Source: a virus. From it: DNA of 64,000 nucleotides. Under the pieces are notes generated by a model, which had not been told where the DNA came from, searched no databases, and was given only the letters and a program-made list of their open reading frames with translations. The position numbers and the translations under genes were made by a program. Below, piece by piece: positions 3,299 to 41,987 of the stretch (position 1 is the first letter of the stretch; each line of letters opens with the position of its first letter). The DNA lies in IMG/VR virus record IMGVR_UViG_3300049002_000006, positions 18,147-82,146 of that record; one strand, 5' to 3'.

Positions 3299-3397
3299 AT
3301 GGTTTCGTTCGACAGGTCTTGGTGGAAGGGACCGGCCCCGTGGTGGGGCGGGCTACTGGTCGTCGCCGTAACCCTACTGTTCTGGATTTTCTCATGA
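3299..3397 (+). CDS. 32-residue Trp-rich single-span membrane protein
   Basis: ATG at 3299 follows an AAGGA ribosome site at 3287-3291. The product has a short Trp-rich amphipathic start (R-S-W-W-K-G-P-A-P-W-W-G-G) and one hydrophobic segment (L-L-V-V-A-V-T-L-L-F-W-I-F). Its stop overlaps the portal ATG (ATGA, 3394-3397), so the two are translationally coupled. The composition suits a small membrane peptide with the N-terminus outside or at the interface. A role in portal assembly at the membrane, or in lysis, is only a guess. Confidence 0.6.
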   Translation: MVSFDRSWWKGPAPWWGGLLVVAVTLLFWIFS

Positions 3398-4980
3398 AGG
3401 GTATGCCAAAGGTCACTTTCGACCAGGCCGAGCGGATCCTCGATCAGAAAATCGAAGAACTCCTTCGTCACGGCAACGTCCGGAACGAATCCAGTCTGCA
3501 CGGTCGGCCGTCCCGGTCCGATCTTGCTGCCACGTCTGTGGACGAAGATCCGGAAAGGGACTTGTACACGGAGTGCGGGTATCCGAGGACGATCACCGCC
3601 TTCAAGTATAAAGCCCTGATCGAACGGGAAGGACACGCCCGCCGGGCGAACGAAATCTACCCGGACGAAACGTGGGCCGAGGAGCCCGAGATTTTCGAGT
3701 CGGACGATGAGACGGTCGAGACTCCACTGGAAAAGTCGTGGTTGGAGTACGCCGCGAAGACCAGGGCTTTGAGGTACATGTACCTCGGAGACATCGCGTC
3801 GGGCATCGGCCGGATCGGCGGACTTTTATTCGGCTTTAACGACCTATCTGGAAGCCGGAAGCCGGAAAAACCAGTTCTAGGTTTGAAGGACGACGGGACG
3901 CGAGCCCCCGGCCGCCCGCCCGAAGACCGTCAACACCTGTTCACGCGGGTGTTTGACGAGACGCTCATCCAGATCGTTGACGTTGACAACAGTTACGGGC
4001 CACGACACGGCCAGCCGACGATGTACCGGCTGACGCTCACGACACCTGACGGCATCATCAACTCCGCGACCGAGGGCACGCAACGACCGATCAGCAAGAA
4101 GGCGGCAACGGACGAGACGCTACTAGTTCATTGGACTAGGTTCTTGCCCCTGGCCGACGGGAAGACGACACACCCGATTTTCGGCACGCCCCGACTCGAA
4201 AGCAACTATAACCGGTTGCTCGATCTTCGGAAGCTGTATTCGGCCTCGCCCGAGATGTTCTACAACGGAGCGTTTCCTGGGTATTCTCTCGAAGCCCTGC
4301 CGGACGTGACCAGTGACGACGACATCGACGTGGAGGCGACTCAACTCCAGCTGAGTCGGTACCGGAAGAAACTGCAACGGTTTGTCATGCTCGTTGGCAT
4401 GACCATGAAGCCGCTGACACCACAAATTGCCGACCCGTCTAAGCACGTCGAAGTCTTGTTGGCGGCCGTCGCTATGGCGATGGGTATTCCGCTACGAATC
4501 TTCCTGGGCTCGGAGTCAGGGCATCTGGCGTCCACACAAGACGTAGCCACATGGAACAAGCGACTGGCAAAGCGGCAGCATACCTACGTCACCCCCGAGA
4601 TTATCATTCCGTACATCGAACGGATGCAACTCGTCGGGTGTCTGCCGCAGTCGAAGCAGGTCAAGGTGGCGTGGGCCGACTTAAACAGTTCGTCGGACGA
4701 GACGCAGGCGGACGTGGCGTTGAAGACCACGCAAGCCTTGTTGCAGTACGCCAAGTCCGGGGCCGAGGAATTCTTCCCGTTGCCGTTCTTCCTGGCTCAC
4801 GTCCTGAAGTATAACAGGAAGTTGGTGTCGGCTATTGTCAAGGAGGCTCAGAAGCGAGGTCGGTTGAAGCTGACGAGGAAGGTTTGGGAACAAGAAAAGG
4901 CCGCTCCGATCGGCGGGACAGGGAAGAAGCAGACCGGAGCTAAGACTGGTCGCAAGAGGAATGCGACCAGTAGTAAGTGA
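3394..4980 (+). CDS. Portal protein
   Basis: The product, 528 residues from the ATG at 3394, is predicted to form the dodecameric DNA-packaging channel at one head vertex. I chose this ATG because it overlaps the stop of the small membrane protein; a TTG at 3319 is also in frame. The central part (R-Y-R-K-K-L-Q-R-F-V-M-L-V-G, then V-A-M-A-M-G-I-P-L-R-I-F-L-G-S-E-S-G) and the following A-T-W-N-K-R-L-A-K-R-Q helix match the core of phage portals of the DUF1073 type, with the late wing and clip order and a basic C-terminal tail (G-K-K-Q-T-G-A-K-T-G-R-K-R). Length is normal for portals. The capsid genes do not follow directly: a membrane/envelope module lies between. Confidence 0.75.
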   Translation: MKGMPKVTFDQAERILDQKIEELLRHGNVRNESSLHGRPSRSDLAATSVDEDPERDLYTECGYPRTITAFKYKALIEREGHARRANEIYPDETWAEEPEIFESDDETVETPLEKSWLEYAAKTRALRYMYLGDIASGIGRIGGLLFGFNDLSGSRKPEKPVLGLKDDGTRAPGRPPEDRQHLFTRVFDETLIQIVDVDNSYGPRHGQPTMYRLTLTTPDGIINSATEGTQRPISKKAATDETLLVHWTRFLPLADGKTTHPIFGTPRLESNYNRLLDLRKLYSASPEMFYNGAFPGYSLEALPDVTSDDDIDVEATQLQLSRYRKKLQRFVMLVGMTMKPLTPQIADPSKHVEVLLAAVAMAMGIPLRIFLGSESGHLASTQDVATWNKRLAKRQHTYVTPEIIIPYIERMQLVGCLPQSKQVKVAWADLNSSSDETQADVALKTTQALLQYAKSGAEEFFPLPFFLAHVLKYNRKLVSAIVKEAQKRGRLKLTRKVWEQEKAAPIGGTGKKQTGAKTGRKRNATSSK

Positions 4981-5005
4981 TCGCCTTCGCCTATCGGGAG
5001 TTAGG

Positions 5006-5656
5006 ATGTGGTGGTTTGAAACAACAGACTGGCCCGCCCGCTGGCAGTGCGGTATTTGGCCGTGGTGGCTAGGATGGGGGACGATTTGTAGTAACCTGAT
5101 GATCACGGGAGCTTACTACCTGATTCCTGGTTTGATGCTTTATTTAATCAGGAAGAAGCCGGAGCTAGTCCATAGTCACAAGAAACTGGCAATTTGGTTT
5201 GCTATGTTCGTCATCATGTGTGGAACGACTCACGCGATGGACGCTCTGTCGTACTGGTGGCCGGCTTATCGATTTAATCTTTTGGTCCGTTTCGGAACGG
5301 CAGTCGTCTCCGTGTACACTCTGGCTTTGTTGTGGGCCAGTCGCTTATCACTCTTGAATTACTGCGGGCCGGAGGCCGTGCAGAAGTTACTAGACGAGCG
5401 CAACGAAGCTGTCCGGAAGTTACAGGCGACCAATAGGCTCCTCGAAGCGCAGGCGGCCAGAGACCACAGGCAATTACAGGAATTCGAGAAGGACTTGTCT
5501 GACGTCCGAGTTCAAGCCGTCAAATTAGAGCAAATGGACGATGACGGGTTAAGAGCCATCGGAGACCAAATCCGGAAGAAGATCCATGAGATTCGAGGGC
5601 ACACTCCGATCTCCCTCGCCCACGTGATAGCCAAAGCCGGAGAAGAAATACCGTGA
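5006..5656 (+). CDS. Ethylene-receptor-like (ETR1-type) sensor domain protein
   Basis: The ATG at 5006 follows GGGAG at 4996-5000. The 216-residue product has three membrane helices (about 21-49, 61-85 and 90-115) and then a long coiled coil (about 120-185). Helix 1 carries N30, Y37 and P41, and helix 2 carries C72-G-T-T-H76. The spacing matches Asp25, Tyr32, Pro36, Cys65 and His69 of the Arabidopsis ETR1 ethylene-binding domain, in which Cys65 and His69 hold copper. The Asp25 position is Asn here. No histidine kinase, GAF or receiver domain follows, unlike known receptors. It sits between the portal gene and another membrane/coiled-coil gene (GTGA overlap). A membrane sensor or lysis-timing role is inferred; a chance likeness of a Trp-rich three-helix protein cannot be excluded. 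Confidence 0.65.
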   Translation: MWWFETTDWPARWQCGIWPWWLGWGTICSNLMITGAYYLIPGLMLYLIRKKPELVHSHKKLAIWFAMFVIMCGTTHAMDALSYWWPAYRFNLLVRFGTAVVSVYTLALLWASRLSLLNYCGPEAVQKLLDERNEAVRKLQATNRLLEAQAARDHRQLQEFEKDLSDVRVQAVKLEQMDDDGLRAIGDQIRKKIHEIRGHTPISLAHVIAKAGEEIP

Positions 5657-6129
5657 TTACGCCTATCGTGTTCGCCGACACTGACTGGAGTACAGTCGTG
5701 ACAGCAGCGGTGGCAGCTTTCTTAACTGTGGCAACTACCATAGGAGGCGGAATAGGGTGGTTGCTGAATTGGCGGTCTAAGCAGGAAGACAAAGAAAGGA
5801 AATATTCGACCGAAATGATGACCAGGTTCGAAGCCCTGGTCGGTAAGGTCGAAAGCATATCGACCGAATTTCGGACGGCAAACCGGGACATGGCCAAGGA
5901 CTTCCAAGGCACGGCGACCTCTTTGGCGAAGGAGGCCAGAACGGAAAGCCGGGAAGTGATGAAGACTCTGCTGAACATCCAGAGTGAGGCGGTCGAAGCC
6001 GTCGGCGGATTGGCCACCGAGGTCAGAGCCCTCGGGATGGCCCTCAACGAGTTGAGACTGGAGTTAGACAGGAAGCAAGACAAGCACCCGTCGCTAGTGC
6101 TTCCTGCCGGGGTGACAGGAGGGAGTTGA
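5653..6129 (+). CDS. Single-span membrane protein with coiled coil
   Basis: The GTG start overlaps the previous stop (GTGA). Residues about 12-40 form one hydrophobic segment (T-V-V-T-A-A-V-A-A-F-L-T-V-A-T-T-I-G-G). They are followed by a charged alpha-helical coiled coil to about residue 145 and a short flexible end. The arrangement (short outside end, one span, long coil) is seen in spanins and in some holin-like or cell-envelope phage proteins, but no diagnostic motif is present. Its neighbours are both membrane proteins. Confidence 0.65.
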   Translation: MITPIVFADTDWSTVVTAAVAAFLTVATTIGGGIGWLLNWRSKQEDKERKYSTEMMTRFEALVGKVESISTEFRTANRDMAKDFQGTATSLAKEARTESREVMKTLLNIQSEAVEAVGGLATEVRALGMALNELRLELDRKQDKHPSLVLPAGVTGGS

Positions 6130-6341
6130 TGATGCCAGAAGAACTCCATAGCGGACAGTCACTATTCTGGTATCGAGTTTTCGTGATCGTCGTCAGCCTC
6201 GCCATCGTCCAATACGTCGTCGGCCGTATTTCGACCAAAGATTCGACACGCGAAGACGTGGCCTCGTCTATGGTACGGGAAAACGAGGCTAGAACGTGGG
6301 CATGGTGGGTGGCGGTCCGATCTGACAATCAACAACCGTGA
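6129..6341 (+). CDS. Small single-span membrane protein
   Basis: The start is the ATG at 6129, overlapping the previous TGA, with AGGAGG at 6117-6122; a second ATG at 6132 is equally possible. The 70-residue product has one span (Y-R-V-F-V-I-V-V-S-L-A-I-V-Q-Y-V-V) and a charged tail ending in a Trp-rich patch. It is the third membrane gene in a row. The function is unknown; a holin-like role fits the size but is not shown. Its 3' end overlaps the opposite-strand lipoprotein gene by 53 nt. Confidence 0.55.
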   Translation: MMPEELHSGQSLFWYRVFVIVVSLAIVQYVVGRISTKDSTREDVASSMVRENEARTWAWWVAVRSDNQQP

Positions 6342-6959: not shown

Positions 6960-7673
6960 ATGCGACGACTCGCAATCGTTGGCATGTTCGTCCTGGTGAC
7001 GGCGTGCCAAGCTGCCGACTTGAAACTGGTCGGTGAGCGGCAAGTGTCGGCGGACAAATTCGCCGACTTCATGGTCGAAGGTCACACCGAAAACGTAGAC
7101 TACTTCGTCTATCCGATCCCGCCAATGTCAGTAGAGCGGGGCGGCGGGATATCGTTCAGCCGCGATCCGAAGGTTGCCGTCTACGTCATCAAAGCGACCG
7201 TGGTAGATTTCAACGCCAAAAAGGTTTTGAAGAGTGATCTAGTTCCGGTGACATTCGGGATTCCGATCCCACCAGGTCCTCCGGACCCACCTGAACCGCC
7301 CCCACTGCCGGAAGATCCCTTCATCAAAGGGTTGAGAGAGGAAGTTGCGAAAATCTCTCCCGCGGAAGACAAAGCCCGGGTCACGGCTTTGTCGGAAATG
7401 TACCGGGCCGGGGCCAAAGCCGTCGAGGACAAGATCGTCAAATCATGGACCGGGCTCCGGGCAAAGTTGGGGGACGAAGCGGCCAGTCGTCAAATTTCAG
7501 GTCGTCTAGCAAACGTCCAGAAGTACATCATCGAAACCAAGCTGAGTAAGGCGATGCCGAAAACCATCGATCCTCTGGACGACGTGTTTACGGCAGATAA
7601 AGGGAGGGCCGCTCAGCAGGTGTTGACCGAGGCGGCGGATGCTTTGGACAAGGTGGCCAGGAACGGAAAGTAA
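6960..7673 (+). CDS. Putative lipoprotein with proline-rich linker
   Basis: The ATG at 6960 is preceded by CAGGAG. The first 19 residues form a signal peptide with the lipobox V-T-A-C, so membrane anchoring through a lipid-modified Cys is expected. A beta-rich domain (about 20-100), a linker of Pro-Gly, Pro-Asp and Pro-Glu repeats (about 101-120), and an all-alpha C-terminal half follow. The all-alpha half contains D-K-A-R-V-T-A-L-S-E-M-Y. It belongs to the cluster of exported proteins at 5006-9586. No enzyme motif is seen. Confidence 0.65.
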   Translation: MRRLAIVGMFVLVTACQAADLKLVGERQVSADKFADFMVEGHTENVDYFVYPIPPMSVERGGGISFSRDPKVAVYVIKATVVDFNAKKVLKSDLVPVTFGIPIPPGPPDPPEPPPLPEDPFIKGLREEVAKISPAEDKARVTALSEMYRAGAKAVEDKIVKSWTGLRAKLGDEAASRQISGRLANVQKYIIETKLSKAMPKTIDPLDDVFTADKGRAAQQVLTEAADALDKVARNGK

Positions 7674-7688
7674 CCAGGAGAACTCGCG

Positions 7689-8708
7689 ATGGACGAACAT
7701 GAAATCTTCCGGCAGGTCGGTGGTCGCCCAATGCTTCCTGTAGGAGCCAAGTTCGCCGACTTCGCTCCCGCAGACGTTCCGTGGAACTTCGGGCTTCTGC
7801 CACAGACGCCTCCGGTCCTGGACATGATCCGGGCCACGCCGTCCTTGGCCCAACGGTTTCCTAGACTTGTCGGGTCATGGGACGGCAAGACCGAAATCAA
7901 CCTGCTTGATTCGGTTCGGAAGATTGGTGTGGACCCGATCAGTCTCGTACAGTACCAGCCCCGCGGGACTTGTGGCGGCCGGGCGGGGAGTCTCGGCCTC
8001 GACCTGATCCAGGCTTCCGTGATCGCGTCGGGCAGGTCTGATAAGAAGACTAAGTTCCGGCGGGCCTCGCACGCGGCCGTCTACTACTTCGCCCGGCAGA
8101 AGTACGGCATGGACCGGGGCGGGAATAACGAAAACAATGACGGCGTGGCGGGCGGGGCCGTGCCCGAGATCCTAGCCGACCCCTTATTCGGTGTCGTATT
8201 CCGGGACGAGATCGGGGACACGAACTACTACGGTGAAGGGTCGGACGATCTGGCGTGTACGATTGGTGGCGGTCAAATCAGTGCGGACATGAAGAAGAAG
8301 ATTCACGAATTAGGTAGCGACAACACCATCGTGAAGGTCCGGTGCAAGTCTGCGCAAGACGTGGCCGACGTCCTGTTCAATCGAGGAGTCATCGTTCAGT
8401 CCGACAGTCAGGGCTACACGATGCAGCGGGACAAGGACGGATTTTGCCGTCCTTCTGGAACGTGGGCTCATTACCAAGTTCGCGGGGGGATTATAATCCG
8501 GAACGGCCGAAAAGGGTTTGTATACTACCAGTCGTGGAACAGGGACACACCGTCGGGGGACGTGATTCCGGGTTATACCGGAAACTGCTTCGGCGTAGAT
8601 TGGGACGTCGAAGACAAGCTGTGCCGGACCGGCGAAGTGGATGGACTACTGGACCTGGCTCTGTGGGATTACGATAAAGGACCGATCGAACTCAACTGGT
8701 TATTCTAA
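7689..8708 (+). CDS. Putative papain-fold cysteine peptidase
   Basis: The ATG at 7689 has AGGAG about 9 nt upstream. In the 339-residue product Q90-P-R-G-T-C95-G-G resembles the oxyanion Gln and nucleophile Cys of papain-like (C1) enzymes. W-A-H261-Y-Q-V-R-G-G and Y-Y-Q-S-W-N284 fall where the catalytic His and the Asn-Ser-Trp motif would be. Neither a propeptide nor a signal peptide is obvious. Placed among envelope proteins in a late operon, it could cleave cell-wall peptides or host proteins at lysis or entry. The match rests on motif order alone. Confidence 0.45.
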   Translation: MDEHEIFRQVGGRPMLPVGAKFADFAPADVPWNFGLLPQTPPVLDMIRATPSLAQRFPRLVGSWDGKTEINLLDSVRKIGVDPISLVQYQPRGTCGGRAGSLGLDLIQASVIASGRSDKKTKFRRASHAAVYYFARQKYGMDRGGNNENNDGVAGGAVPEILADPLFGVVFRDEIGDTNYYGEGSDDLACTIGGGQISADMKKKIHELGSDNTIVKVRCKSAQDVADVLFNRGVIVQSDSQGYTMQRDKDGFCRPSGTWAHYQVRGGIIIRNGRKGFVYYQSWNRDTPSGDVIPGYTGNCFGVDWDVEDKLCRTGEVDGLLDLALWDYDKGPIELNWLF

Positions 8709-24151: not shown

Positions 24152-24454
24152 ATGGCCGACGACAACGAAACCCCAAAGTGGGGTGTGAATTGGTTGCTAA
24201 GCCCGACCGGCATGTCTCAGGTCGGGCAACTCATCATCTTGTTGATCGCGCTGGTGAAGGCTTTCCAGAACGGCGAGAAGGCCGACAAGGCGAAGGACGC
24301 GGCTGACGACGCCCGGGGCCACGCCGCCGTAACCGCAACCAGGATCGAAGACGTGAAGAAAGACGTGCAAGAAGTTCGTGTGGACGTGGAGCAGGTGAAT
24401 AAGAACCAGCAGAAAGTTCTTATGAACCAGTTGAAGCCGAAGAAGGGCGATTAA
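24152..24454 (+). CDS. Small membrane protein with coiled coil (holin-like candidate)
   Basis: The ATG at 24152 follows AAGAGGA. The 100-residue product has one hydrophobic segment (residues about 21-42, V-G-Q-L-I-I-L-L-I-A-L-V-K-A-F), then a charged coiled coil with D-V-K-K-D-V-Q-E-V-R-V-D-V. It ends the + strand block; its TAA overlaps the stop of the convergent - strand gene by 3 nt. A holin or tail/membrane role is possible but not shown. Confidence 0.5.
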   Translation: MADDNETPKWGVNWLLSPTGMSQVGQLIILLIALVKAFQNGEKADKAKDAADDARGHAAVTATRIEDVKKDVQEVRVDVEQVNKNQQKVLMNQLKPKKGD

Positions 24455-36375: not shown

Positions 36376-36559
36376 TGTCTTTACCGGTTTCTAGTGCGAG
36401 TTCCAATAGAGGGATGATACTTTCTTTTCCGCACGTCTCGACAATGTGAACTCCTTCTAGTCCGAATACTAGAGCGATGACAACGTGTTCTTCGATCGCT
36501 TCTTTGTCCAGGTCTTTAATCAAAGCTGACAGGGCTTTTGTGTATTCCTGATTTTTCAC
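36305..36559 (-). CDS. Small hypothetical protein
   Basis: It starts at a GTG at 36559 that overlaps the polymerase stop (GTGA). The 84 residues are helical (K-A-L-S-A-L-I-K-D-L-D-K) with a strand V-V-I-A-L-V-F-G-L-E-G. The end overlaps the SLOG-like gene by 71 nt in another frame. It is unrecognised; polymerase accessory function would be a guess. Confidence 0.45.
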   Translation of the reverse strand: MKNQEYTKALSALIKDLDKEAIEEHVVIALVFGLEGVHIVETCGKESIIPLLELALETGKDNERKTFTTDNQVAGRDEKEGNSN

Positions 36560-37965
36560 GCCGCGATCTCCATGGGGGCCTTCTCGTGCCACGACCTGCC
36601 CCGGGGGGCCACGTCCGCCTCGATTTCTAACGGGACGATAATCCAGCTGAAATGTTTACGGACTTCTTCGACCATTACTTTGTGACAGATCGCCAGCAGC
36701 TTCTTAACTTCGTCCTTGTGACAGTCGAACAGAATGGAATCGTGAATCTCTCCGACCATCAAGCACCGTTTCAGCCCGGCCTTCTCTAACTCTTCCAGAA
36801 TTCTGGGCATCGACCACAGGGCTAGATGGAAGGCCGACCCCTGGACCGGGATGTTGATGACTTGGTTGCGACGCATCGGGCTGTCACAACGAAACCCTGT
36901 CAGCAGGTCGAAGTAGCCACGTTCCAGATATTTATTATACCATTCCTTCTTCCATTTCGAGTAGACGGCGAAGCGTTCGTTCCAGAACTTCTTCTCCACT
37001 TGCTTGATATGGTATTCAAACGTGCCGGGCCGCGGGTCGCAATCTTCGAGGCACGCCCCCATAGATTTGATTCCGTTGCGAGCCAGGTGCTTTTCTAGAG
37101 GCACACCGCTATTGGTCGTGAGTTTGAGCTGGTCGATGGCGTGCCAAAGTGCTTTGGCACAGTCCACATAATAGCTTCCGTAGAACTGTGGGAAGACGTA
37201 CTTGTTTTTTGCGCAATATCTGGAATCTTTGCTAACTTCTTCCTTACTAAGCAGGTAGCACTCCATCGCCATGTCTCGGTGCATATCCGTCGTCTTGTCT
37301 TTGATGTATTTCAACAGGACCGGGTCCTTGTTGTAGCACGCCGAGACCTTGACCTCGATTCCGCCGTAATCGACTTCAACGATACAGTGATCCGGATGGC
37401 GTGGCTTGTAGCATCGCCGAACCATCTCGGCCAGTTTCTTATTTCTTACCGGCTGGTTCTGGAAGTTAGGCCGGCTACATCCGGACCTGTGGCTGAGAGA
37501 CAAATTGAGACTGTAGCCCGGATGCACGAACCCGTCGATCATTTCCCGCTTCAAGCCGTCGAGGTAAGTGGACTTGATCTTTAGGAGCTTTCGCAGGTCC
37601 TGGTATTTTTTCAGGAAAGGTAAGTCCGACGAGTCGAGTCTCGACAAGACCTCTTCTGTCATCTTCGGCTGGCCCGTCTTCGTCAACTCTCTCTGGTCGA
37701 TCTTAAATCCGAGGACGCCGTACAGGAGCTTACCGAATTGGGGCAGGCTGTTCAGGTTGGCCTTCTGCCCGAAGCGCTTCTTCCATTCTAACCAGACAGG
37801 ACTTCCTTTCAGAATGGCTTGCCTGATTTCAATCTTGTGGGCCATGCCCTTGATCGCTGATTCCAGGTAGTCCACGTCTACGGCGACTCCATTAAACTCT
37901 ATCTCGGCGAGAGCCCGTTGCCCACGATACAGGAGCTTGATCGCTTCTTTAGTATTCGGTTTCAC
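36556..37965 (-). CDS. Family A DNA polymerase core (no proofreading domain)
   Basis: The 469-residue product contains only the polymerase half of PolA. Motif A is E-V-D199-Y-G-G-I-E (normally DYSQIE). The O-helix reads R249-Y-C-A-K253-N-K-Y-V-F-P-Q-F-Y-G, with the sugar-selectivity site likely Phe258. Motif C is G-E-I-H-D-S-I-L-F (usually VHDE). The 3'-5' exonuclease is encoded separately at 40579-41796, fused to uracil-DNA glycosylase. The two proteins could form a bipartite replicase like the single-chain SPO1 polymerase. Confidence 0.85.
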   Translation of the reverse strand: MKPNTKEAIKLLYRGQRALAEIEFNGVAVDVDYLESAIKGMAHKIEIRQAILKGSPVWLEWKKRFGQKANLNSLPQFGKLLYGVLGFKIDQRELTKTGQPKMTEEVLSRLDSSDLPFLKKYQDLRKLLKIKSTYLDGLKREMIDGFVHPGYSLNLSLSHRSGCSRPNFQNQPVRNKKLAEMVRRCYKPRHPDHCIVEVDYGGIEVKVSACYNKDPVLLKYIKDKTTDMHRDMAMECYLLSKEEVSKDSRYCAKNKYVFPQFYGSYYVDCAKALWHAIDQLKLTTNSGVPLEKHLARNGIKSMGACLEDCDPRPGTFEYHIKQVEKKFWNERFAVYSKWKKEWYNKYLERGYFDLLTGFRCDSPMRRNQVINIPVQGSAFHLALWSMPRILEELEKAGLKRCLMVGEIHDSILFDCHKDEVKKLLAICHKVMVEEVRKHFSWIIVPLEIEADVAPRGRSWHEKAPMEIAA

Positions 37966-40234: not shown

Positions 40235-40582
40235 TCAGGCCCCAGGAGGCAGTTCCGTACCAGGAGTCGGAACGTCTTGTTGATCGCCGGCCTTCGCCAA
40301 AGGAACAGTTGTCTCTGCCCCTAGCGTGGCAGGAACTTCCGTCGGGACCGGAGGCGTCACGCTCGCCCTGGCCTGGTCCATCATTGCCGAGAACTTCGCC
40401 TCTAGCCGGTTGAAGCATAGCCCGATGTCCTTCACCTTACCCTCGGCCCGGTTGCTATACAAGCTTTGGGCGATGCCGACGAACTCCTGGCCTGTCCGAT
40501 AGTTGCCGAACAGCTTTCGCAGGGTATCTACTTCCTTCTGCACGACTTCCAACGATTCGATACTGACGGTTGCGTTAATCAT
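40235..40582 (-). CDS. Small hypothetical protein
   Basis: The product has 115 residues: a helical first 75 residues (S-L-E-V-V-Q-K-E-V-D-T-L-R-K-L-F) and a Pro/Thr-rich disordered tail. It overlaps the UDG-exonuclease stop by 4 nt. Function unknown. Confidence 0.5.
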   Translation of the reverse strand: MINATVSIESLEVVQKEVDTLRKLFGNYRTGQEFVGIAQSLYSNRAEGKVKDIGLCFNRLEAKFSAMMDQARASVTPPVPTEVPATLGAETTVPLAKAGDQQDVPTPGTELPPGA

Positions 40583-41796
40583 CCGATCTCCTTGAGTTGT
40601 TCCTTAGCGACGTGCCACGTCAATAAGGAATCTAGGGCGTTATAACGGAGGACCGTACTCAGGTCGCATTCCGTTATTCGGTTGAGCCCCGGCCCGGATT
40701 CGTCTTTCGGTACCAGGTACGGGGCTACTGTATCGTTGTATTGTGGTTGCCCTAGTTTCACGAACGCCTGGAATTTCAGGCCACTAACCCCGCGTCTATG
40801 GTCTAGGGCGTGGGCGACTAGCATTCCGTCATGTCTCCAGTTGTTGACGAACTTGCCCCATTGAAACCTGGTCCATAAATCTTCGTGTTTCGTGTTCCAA
40901 CCGATCTTCGGGCGAGGCCCTAAAACGATTTCCTTCGCGGCTTCGATCACGGGGCCGACGAAAGGGCAAGCGACAGACGAAAGGCCGTCGGAAACGCTTA
41001 TAGAGAAGATGCGGCTATGGACGTGCGGCACTAAAGAGCAAGTCTCATAGTCGAAGGATAAAGACCGTTTATTCGCGTGCATCTTTCGTAGTAATGCCGC
41101 CCCTTCGGTCGGGGCTATTTCGACCACGCATCTAGCGTCCAAGTCATCGACTGGTTCTTTATGTGGCCGTCCGTTTAACTCGAAAGCCGCTTTCAGGTGC
41201 TTGTCGAATAGAATACCTTCTATCGGTTTGTTCTCGTCTTCGTTCCGGTTGACATGACTCGGATGAAACGTCGGGCAGACCCAAGTGTTCGGCTTCCGGC
41301 AAGGAATCTTCCAGCCGGCCCACTTCGTGATGCCCCCGACGTCCTTATCGAACAGCCAACCGATTACCGACTCGACGGCCCTGGCCCCGAGGACGATAAT
41401 TGTTGACGGCTTTAACTCCTTGATCGTATTGGTCACGTTCGGACGACACCATTCGATCATTTCGTCCTTGGTGATCTTATTCCGTGGCGGCCTGCACCAA
41501 AGACTGTTGATGGTCCAGCAATCCCGCTCCAGGTCGATTTTTAGCTTCCTGAGAGTCTTATGGAGTCTGGCCCCGGCCGGGGCTCCTGGAAAGAACGGCC
41601 GCCCGTGCAAGTCTTCCTGTTCTCCGGGGGCCTCGCCGACGATCAGGACACCCCGCTTGCCCTTACCGAAGACCTTCATCTTCGGCGTCCGACACCCGCT
41701 CTTGTCGAGCCGGCACATGGAGCACTTCGGGCTGATCGGGTCCGGCGGCCGAAACATCTCTAAGGCGGTCCGCGAGAACAGAGGACTTTCTAACAT
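40579..41796 (-). CDS. Uracil-DNA glycosylase fused to 3'-5' exonuclease
   Basis: Residues 1-215 are a family 4-type uracil-DNA glycosylase: C25-S-M-C28, G-E-A-P-G-E-Q-E-D (54-62), G-R-P-F-F-P-G-A-P-A-G, S-L-W-C101-R-P-P, E-W-C117-R-P, and F-H-P-S (177-180). The four Cys would hold an iron-sulfur cluster. Residues about 240-405 are a DnaQ/PolA-type exonuclease: S-F-D249-Y-E251-T (Exo I), W-N-T-K-H-E-D (Exo II), Y-N-A-L-D-S (Exo III). It may be the proofreading subunit of the separate polymerase core and help exclude uracil. In SPO1-like phages UDG, exonuclease and polymerase are one chain. Confidence 0.8.
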   Translation of the reverse strand: MLESPLFSRTALEMFRPPDPISPKCSMCRLDKSGCRTPKMKVFGKGKRGVLIVGEAPGEQEDLHGRPFFPGAPAGARLHKTLRKLKIDLERDCWTINSLWCRPPRNKITKDEMIEWCRPNVTNTIKELKPSTIIVLGARAVESVIGWLFDKDVGGITKWAGWKIPCRKPNTWVCPTFHPSHVNRNEDENKPIEGILFDKHLKAAFELNGRPHKEPVDDLDARCVVEIAPTEGAALLRKMHANKRSLSFDYETCSLVPHVHSRIFSISVSDGLSSVACPFVGPVIEAAKEIVLGPRPKIGWNTKHEDLWTRFQWGKFVNNWRHDGMLVAHALDHRRGVSGLKFQAFVKLGQPQYNDTVAPYLVPKDESGPGLNRITECDLSTVLRYNALDSLLTWHVAKEQLKEIG

Positions 41797-41987
41797 CACT
41801 GTTCCTTGCTAGGCGGGCCGTCGTACAGACAAATATTTCCGGAATCTTTCCATTGTTTAACTATTCGGTCGAAGTCTTTTTCGCAGTCGGCGAACGCCCG
41901 AAGGCTGATCTGCCCTCTGGCGAGGAAGGCACCGTCTACGAACACGACGATTCGCTTGACGGTACCTATTGTGATCGGAACTTCCAT
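41796..41987 (-). CDS. Small hypothetical protein
   Basis: The product has 63 residues, starts at an ATG near the clamp stop and ends in a TGATG overlap with the UDG-exonuclease start. A strand V-K-R-I-V-V-F-V-D-G-A-F is followed by a helix. No motif is recognised. Confidence 0.5.
   Translation of the reverse strand: MEVPITIGTVKRIVVFVDGAFLARGQISLRAFADCEKDFDRIVKQWKDSGNICLYDGPPSKEQ

Follow-up and report, generated by a model that had tools for sequence, protein, structure and literature searches.

The closest described systems to the protein reported here are the ethylene receptors (ETR1 of Arabidopsis, SynEtr1 of Synechocystis and AzoEtr1 of Azospirillum), which carry the ETR1_N domain (PF25487), a membrane domain of three helices with a copper pair formed by Cys65 and His69. 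The residues concerned with ethylene binding in this domain are D25, Y32, I35, P36, I62, C65 and H69. Ethylene binding requires seven residues, and changing either Asp25 or Cys65 abolishes binding in ETR1 (PMC11819568), while I35, P36, I62, C65 and H69 are named among the residues for ethylene binding in a second study (PMC6586836). A split form of the receptor was observed in Bacteroidota (loci L031:3911-6327, L033, L037 and L059), where an ETR1_N domain with a short coiled coil, 159-174 aa in total (159 aa in Maribacter sedimenticola), is followed by a membrane histidine kinase and usually by a response regulator. ETR1_N can therefore exist as a separate chain. These stand-alone bacterial proteins retain Asp25. 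Class I holins such as lambda S105 are also relevant for comparison, as their topology consists of three helices with the N-terminus outside and the C-terminus inside (PMC9636201).

The window analyzed here is a stretch of 64,000 nucleotides representing positions 18,147-82,146 of an IMG/VR record of 82,146 bases (IMGVR_UViG_3300049002_000006). This record is a real tailed phage containing genes for the small and large terminase subunits, portal, maturation protease, decoration, head, neck, tape-measure and tail proteins, with DNA polymerase, UvsX and thymidylate synthase encoded on the opposite strand. The DNA polymerase appears to be split into two reading frames about 2.6 kb apart (36559-37965 and 40582-41799, both on the minus strand) that match different parts of one PHROG. 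No close relative of the phage came up in searches with the portal and neighboring genes; its shared genes and nearest ETR1_N domains point weakly to a planctomycetotal host.

The gene of interest (5006..5656, plus strand, as are all features given below between positions 3319 and 8708 of the window) encodes a protein of 216 aa, with a GGGAG ribosome-binding site at 4996..5000 preceding the ATG at 5006. It is located between the portal gene (3319..4980; PF06381 E=4e-17, PHROG 146 E=1e-40) and the maturation protease gene, in agreement with the virion operon that the original prediction had described. Residues 22-112 match the ETR1_N profile with E=2.1e-23 and 82.8 bits, well above the gathering score of 27, and the same profile had matches in none of 14 control genomes. 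The absence of a profile match, which the original prediction had named as refuting it, was therefore not observed. The AlphaFold2 model, built from a 54-sequence alignment, has a pLDDT of 87.7 overall and mostly above 90 in the membrane helices, and consists of three long helices in the ETR1 order and a further helix. Helix 1 (residues 20-50, 5063..5155) carries N30, Y37 and P41, helix 2 (residues 52-81, 5159..5248) carries C72 and H76 at the copper-ligand positions, and helix 3 (residues 88-111, 5267..5338) carries R95 and S102 at the Lys91 and Ser98 positions. As C72 and H76 are spaced i, i+4, they lie on one face of helix 2. The membrane domain is followed by a long helix or coiled coil (residues 122-175, 5369..5530), and no kinase was found either in the Pfam scan or in the model, in which only this long helix follows the domain. 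The gene product is thus supported as a genuine three-helix copper-site domain of the ETR1_N type that differs from the ethylene receptors in lacking the GAF, PAS, kinase and receiver domains and in being encoded in a late phage operon. The coiled coil and the missing kinase had both been anticipated from the sequence. No family of PHROGs and no holin family of Pfam or PHROGs matches the protein, a fold search of the PDB with the model gave no match, and a sequence search of the PDB found no chain for the ETR1 membrane domain. A fold search in a viral library gave a single convincing match, A0A8E4UZR7 (289 aa), which by its equal length is probably gp065 of the Maribacter phage Molly.

Phage copies were aligned with 80 bacterial domains and Arabidopsis ETR1. 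The window protein corresponds to ETR1 as N30=D25, Y37=Y32, I40=I35, P41=P36, V69=I62, C72=C65, H76=H69, R95=K91 and C15=Cys4 (C15 at 5048..5050), so that the residue spacing and the Asp-to-Asn change of the original prediction hold, whereas the substitution of Ile62 by Val had escaped it. Cys4, Tyr32, Ile35, Pro36, Cys65, Gly66, His69, Thr94 and Ser98 are all kept, the copper-ligand stretch reads CGTTH, and five of the seven ethylene-binding residues are present, the exceptions being N30 and V69. Ile62 is found in all 80 bacterial copies, whereas arginine at the Lys91 position is shared with 45 of them. Ethylene sensing is doubtful.

Stand-alone ETR1_N proteins were found in six other phage lineages, which gives seven lineages with the window. 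Two cultured isolates, the Maribacter phages Molly (gp065) and Colly (gp063), encode copies of 289 aa (60.9 bits to ETR1_N) that are annotated as "hypothetical protein". The other copies occur in a 54-kb contig with a Mu-type portal (L091, 103.9 bits), a 50-kb contig (L092, 36.7 bits), a contig in which the gene and its neighbor form a pair between terminase and portal (L093 and the near-identical L094, 75.2 bits), a 31-kb contig with the copy after a tail-spike-like gene (L100, 40.4 bits) and a contig from a Planctomycetota genome bin with the copy directly after tail genes (L123, detected by a profile of the phage copies with E=6e-16). All five of the other lineages scanned with Pfam (Molly, L091, L092, L093 and L100) exceed the ETR1_N cut-off, and the portal or head genes of the contigs belong to different families. 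Some copies are nearly bare domains (119, 128 and 130 aa) and are therefore too small for receptor output, while 100-170 aa lie beyond the membrane domain in the window and Molly copies and a signaling-type coil follows it in the window and L091 copies. One weak candidate (H1, E=0.05) was excluded, a kinase-bearing copy in a 278-kb IMG/VR contig (L090) was not counted as it may be host DNA, and a candidate in a Maribacter genome (L131) proved to be an unrelated five-helix protein. Such genes are rare in phages, since Mollyvirus alone has a convincing copy among 50,697 phage records, and in the alignment of the seven copies conservation was nowhere sufficient for a viral scan. A literature search found no paper linking the domain with phages and PHROGs contains no family of this type, consistent with the earlier statement that no phage case had been described; the recurrence in seven lineages and the partner gene described below are additions to that prediction.

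The Cys/Gly/His positions of the copper site, Tyr32, Ser98 and the N-terminal Cys are kept in all seven phage copies, the last of these also in 79 of 80 bacterial copies. The Cys/Gly/His conservation is biased for L091, L092, L093 and L100, as the pattern used to find them, CGx(T/G)H, demanded it, and is free of this bias for the window, Molly and L123 copies. Asp25, on the other hand, is replaced in five of seven phage copies (N, N, N, A and G) versus four of 80 bacterial copies (Fisher p=7e-5) and Pro36 in three of seven versus none of 80 (p=3e-4), both p-values being rough because related rows in the alignment are not independent. Four kinases of bacteria likewise have asparagine at position 25; one belongs to Verrucomicrobiota and the other three to Acetobacteraceae or their relatives. 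The Molly and Colly proteins resemble the window protein in having ETR1_N, Asn at position 25, a single-helix coiled-coil neighbor and a place in the late operon, but differ in having Ser for Pro36, Asp for Lys91, a C-terminal part of 170 aa and a position directly upstream of an Amidase_3 endolysin gene.

By inspection, a small membrane-anchored protein, mostly with a single helix and a coiled coil, is encoded beside the ETR1_N gene in all seven lineages, whereas the stand-alone proteins of Bacteroidota adjoin a histidine kinase. The two genes overlap in six lineages and are 10 bases apart in the seventh (L093). In the window, the partner (5653..6129, 158 aa, one membrane helix followed by a charged coiled coil) begins with a GTG that overlaps the ETR1_N stop codon, and it is in turn overlapped by a gene for a 71-aa protein with one membrane helix (6126..6341). 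The equivalents are the coiled-coil protein gp064, upstream of gp065 in Molly, L091:8495-8986, L092:7561-7902 (upstream), L093:8209-8769 (downstream), L100:8353-8586 (coil first and helix last) and L123:9944-10261. A strict automatic test (one helix and a charged heptad stretch of 28 residues) was passed in four of the seven lineages; 1-6% of phage ORFs pass it, as against none of the neighbors at 80 bacterial ETR1_N loci. Four of seven would arise by chance with a probability of about 0.002 at 5% per gene, the true chance being higher because membrane genes cluster in phages. No homology was detectable among the coiled-coil partners of different lineages. Their charges suggest that the coil is cytoplasmic in most lineages, and the opposite orientation is also possible given weak matches to Rz-like spanins. 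Another small gene of the window (24152-24451), located where the tail module ends, likewise encodes one membrane helix and a coiled coil, and its product weakly resembles Rz-like spanins.

The best reading of these data is a late two-gene module that reuses a host sensor domain as a minimal three-helix membrane protein. As to its job, we tentatively favor lysis, either as a holin-like or as a holin-timing component working with the adjacent partner, at a level of confidence that stays somewhat below even. The proposal builds on observed features, namely the homology, the seven phage lineages, the loss of Asp25, the neighboring membrane gene and the endolysin next door in Molly. The gene order in Molly is gp064 (coil), gp065 (ETR1_N) and gp066 (Amidase_3 endolysin), and for several kb around the endolysin gp064 and gp065 are the sole membrane genes, gp065 being the sole multi-helix one. 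The region after the tail genes is a common place for lysis genes, and the L100 and L123 copies come after tail genes. Only an amidase was reported by the authors of the Molly genome as a lysis gene (PMC8776804). The ETR1_N proteins resemble class I holins in their three membrane helices, small size, predicted N-out/C-in orientation and, in Molly, a late gene beside a lysis gene, but differ in the copper-type Cys/His site and in having no sequence or profile match to holins. A lysis role is favored because of the bare-domain copies, the Molly gene order and this class I holin layout; more broadly, a repurposed, lysis-associated module is favored because small stand-alone copies occur in seven lineages with membrane-anchored neighbors and, in one, an endolysin neighbor.

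According to this proposal, phages would have taken up the ETR1_N domain, perhaps repeatedly, to serve as a minimal membrane protein with its N-terminus outside and its C-terminus inside, an orientation suggested by loop charges and by ETR1. In the inner membrane, the protein may behave like a holin or help to time one, while the partner, which has a single-helix anchor and in most cases a coiled coil, may oligomerize with it or relay its state. The retained Cys/His site might serve either to bind Cu(I) or as a thiol switch. A more specific version appears unlikely in our estimate: here the ETR1_N trigger and its partner would form a previously unrecognized module for lysis or its timing, gated by Cu(I), thiol redox or a small ligand. 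Small stand-alone copies that retain the copper pair, have in most cases lost the Asp critical for ethylene and adjoin a membrane-anchored gene would represent a second use of the fold, and if the protein serves lysis it would be a new type of holin or a lysis timer with metal or redox input. As Molly and Colly are cultured and grow on a cultured host, a copper-site role separate from ethylene signaling is directly testable.

Several observations argue against a lysis role. A recognizable endolysin is found next door in Molly only, terminase and portal flank the L093 pair, and no holin profiles of Pfam or PHROGs match in the phage contigs. The Cys/Tyr/His conservation exceeds what a pore former needs, although four of the seven copies were found by the CGx(T/G)H pattern, and 100-170 aa trail the membrane domain in the window and Molly copies. 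The partners have no detectable mutual homology and three of seven fail the strict test. The candidate for a lytic enzyme in the window is unproven and lies 2 kb away: it is a putative papain-like cysteine peptidase (7689..8708) with conserved Q90, C95, H261 and SW, a homologue of which adjoins terminase in a prophage-like locus of Planctomycetota. Its predicted structure (pLDDT 30) was given no weight. It is preceded by a gene for a lipoprotein-like protein of 237 aa with a Pro-rich stretch (6960..7673), which has no profile match in Pfam or PHROGs and is possibly an outer-membrane lysis partner. The Planctomycetota prophage-like locus L124:8423-13391 holds a papain-like gene along with a thioredoxin-like gene and a terminase.

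Given the retained copper site, a role as a true small-molecule sensor, in which Cu(I) at C72 and H76 would detect ethylene, another gas or a redox cue and time lysis through the partner or a host kinase, is conceivable, although we consider it rather unlikely. The retained copper ligands, Tyr32, Ser98 and N-terminal Cys, the signaling-type coil in the window and L091 copies and the similar split receptor of Bacteroidota are consistent with sensing. However, Asp25, on which binding in ETR1 depends, is replaced in five of the seven phage copies and Pro36 in three, the Cys/His conservation was partly forced by the search pattern, and no kinase or regulator was found near the pair.

The varied positions of these small membrane gene pairs within late operons, and a weak match of one partner to a membrane protein of phages in the host-takeover class (E=0.001), would suit a membrane moron that serves superinfection exclusion or another takeover of the host envelope instead of lysis. 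The adjacency of the Molly pair to the endolysin, where gp065 is the only multi-helix membrane protein, makes this a quite improbable explanation.

A decoy, one of the readings proposed originally, would here dimerize with and silence an ethylene-receptor-type kinase of the host. It is the part of the earlier interpretation that found no support, while the domain, the Asn, the missing kinase, the coil, the operon and the novelty did. The window and L091 copies are shaped like a truncated receptor, the N-terminal Cys that forms a disulfide dimer in ETR1 (PMC6586836) is conserved in position, and planctomycetotal kinases are the nearest bacterial copies by tree path in a poorly resolved tree. 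Nevertheless, ETR1_N is scarce in candidate hosts, being carried by 28 of 294 genomes in Planctomycetota, 2 of 36 in Maribacter and 21 of 299 in Pseudomonadota, and several of the phage copies lack a coil through which pairing could take place, which leaves a decoy very unlikely. The copies in the 299 Pseudomonadota genomes are all in frames of at least 401 aa. The tree of 72 ETR1_N domains has too few columns to be resolved and its phage branches are long, so the number and source of the phage acquisitions cannot be read from it.

Chance resemblance or contaminating host DNA, for which the kinase-bearing L090 copy in its possibly bacterial contig might be cited, is rejected as practically negligible given the E-value of 2e-23, the intact frame with its ribosome-binding site between portal and maturation protease, and the homologues in the Molly and Colly isolate genomes.

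Two further features were observed in the contigs with phage copies. A single ORF of 893 aa in L093 (8790-11468) combines a portal domain (aa 128-423) with an Acb1 anti-CBASS domain (aa 518-658, E=1e-32), and the gene after it matches an ADP-ribosyltransferase family. A staphylococcal-nuclease-type gene lies beside the ETR1_N pair in L100 (8600-8989, PF00565) and, as recognized by eye, in L092 (8408-8857).
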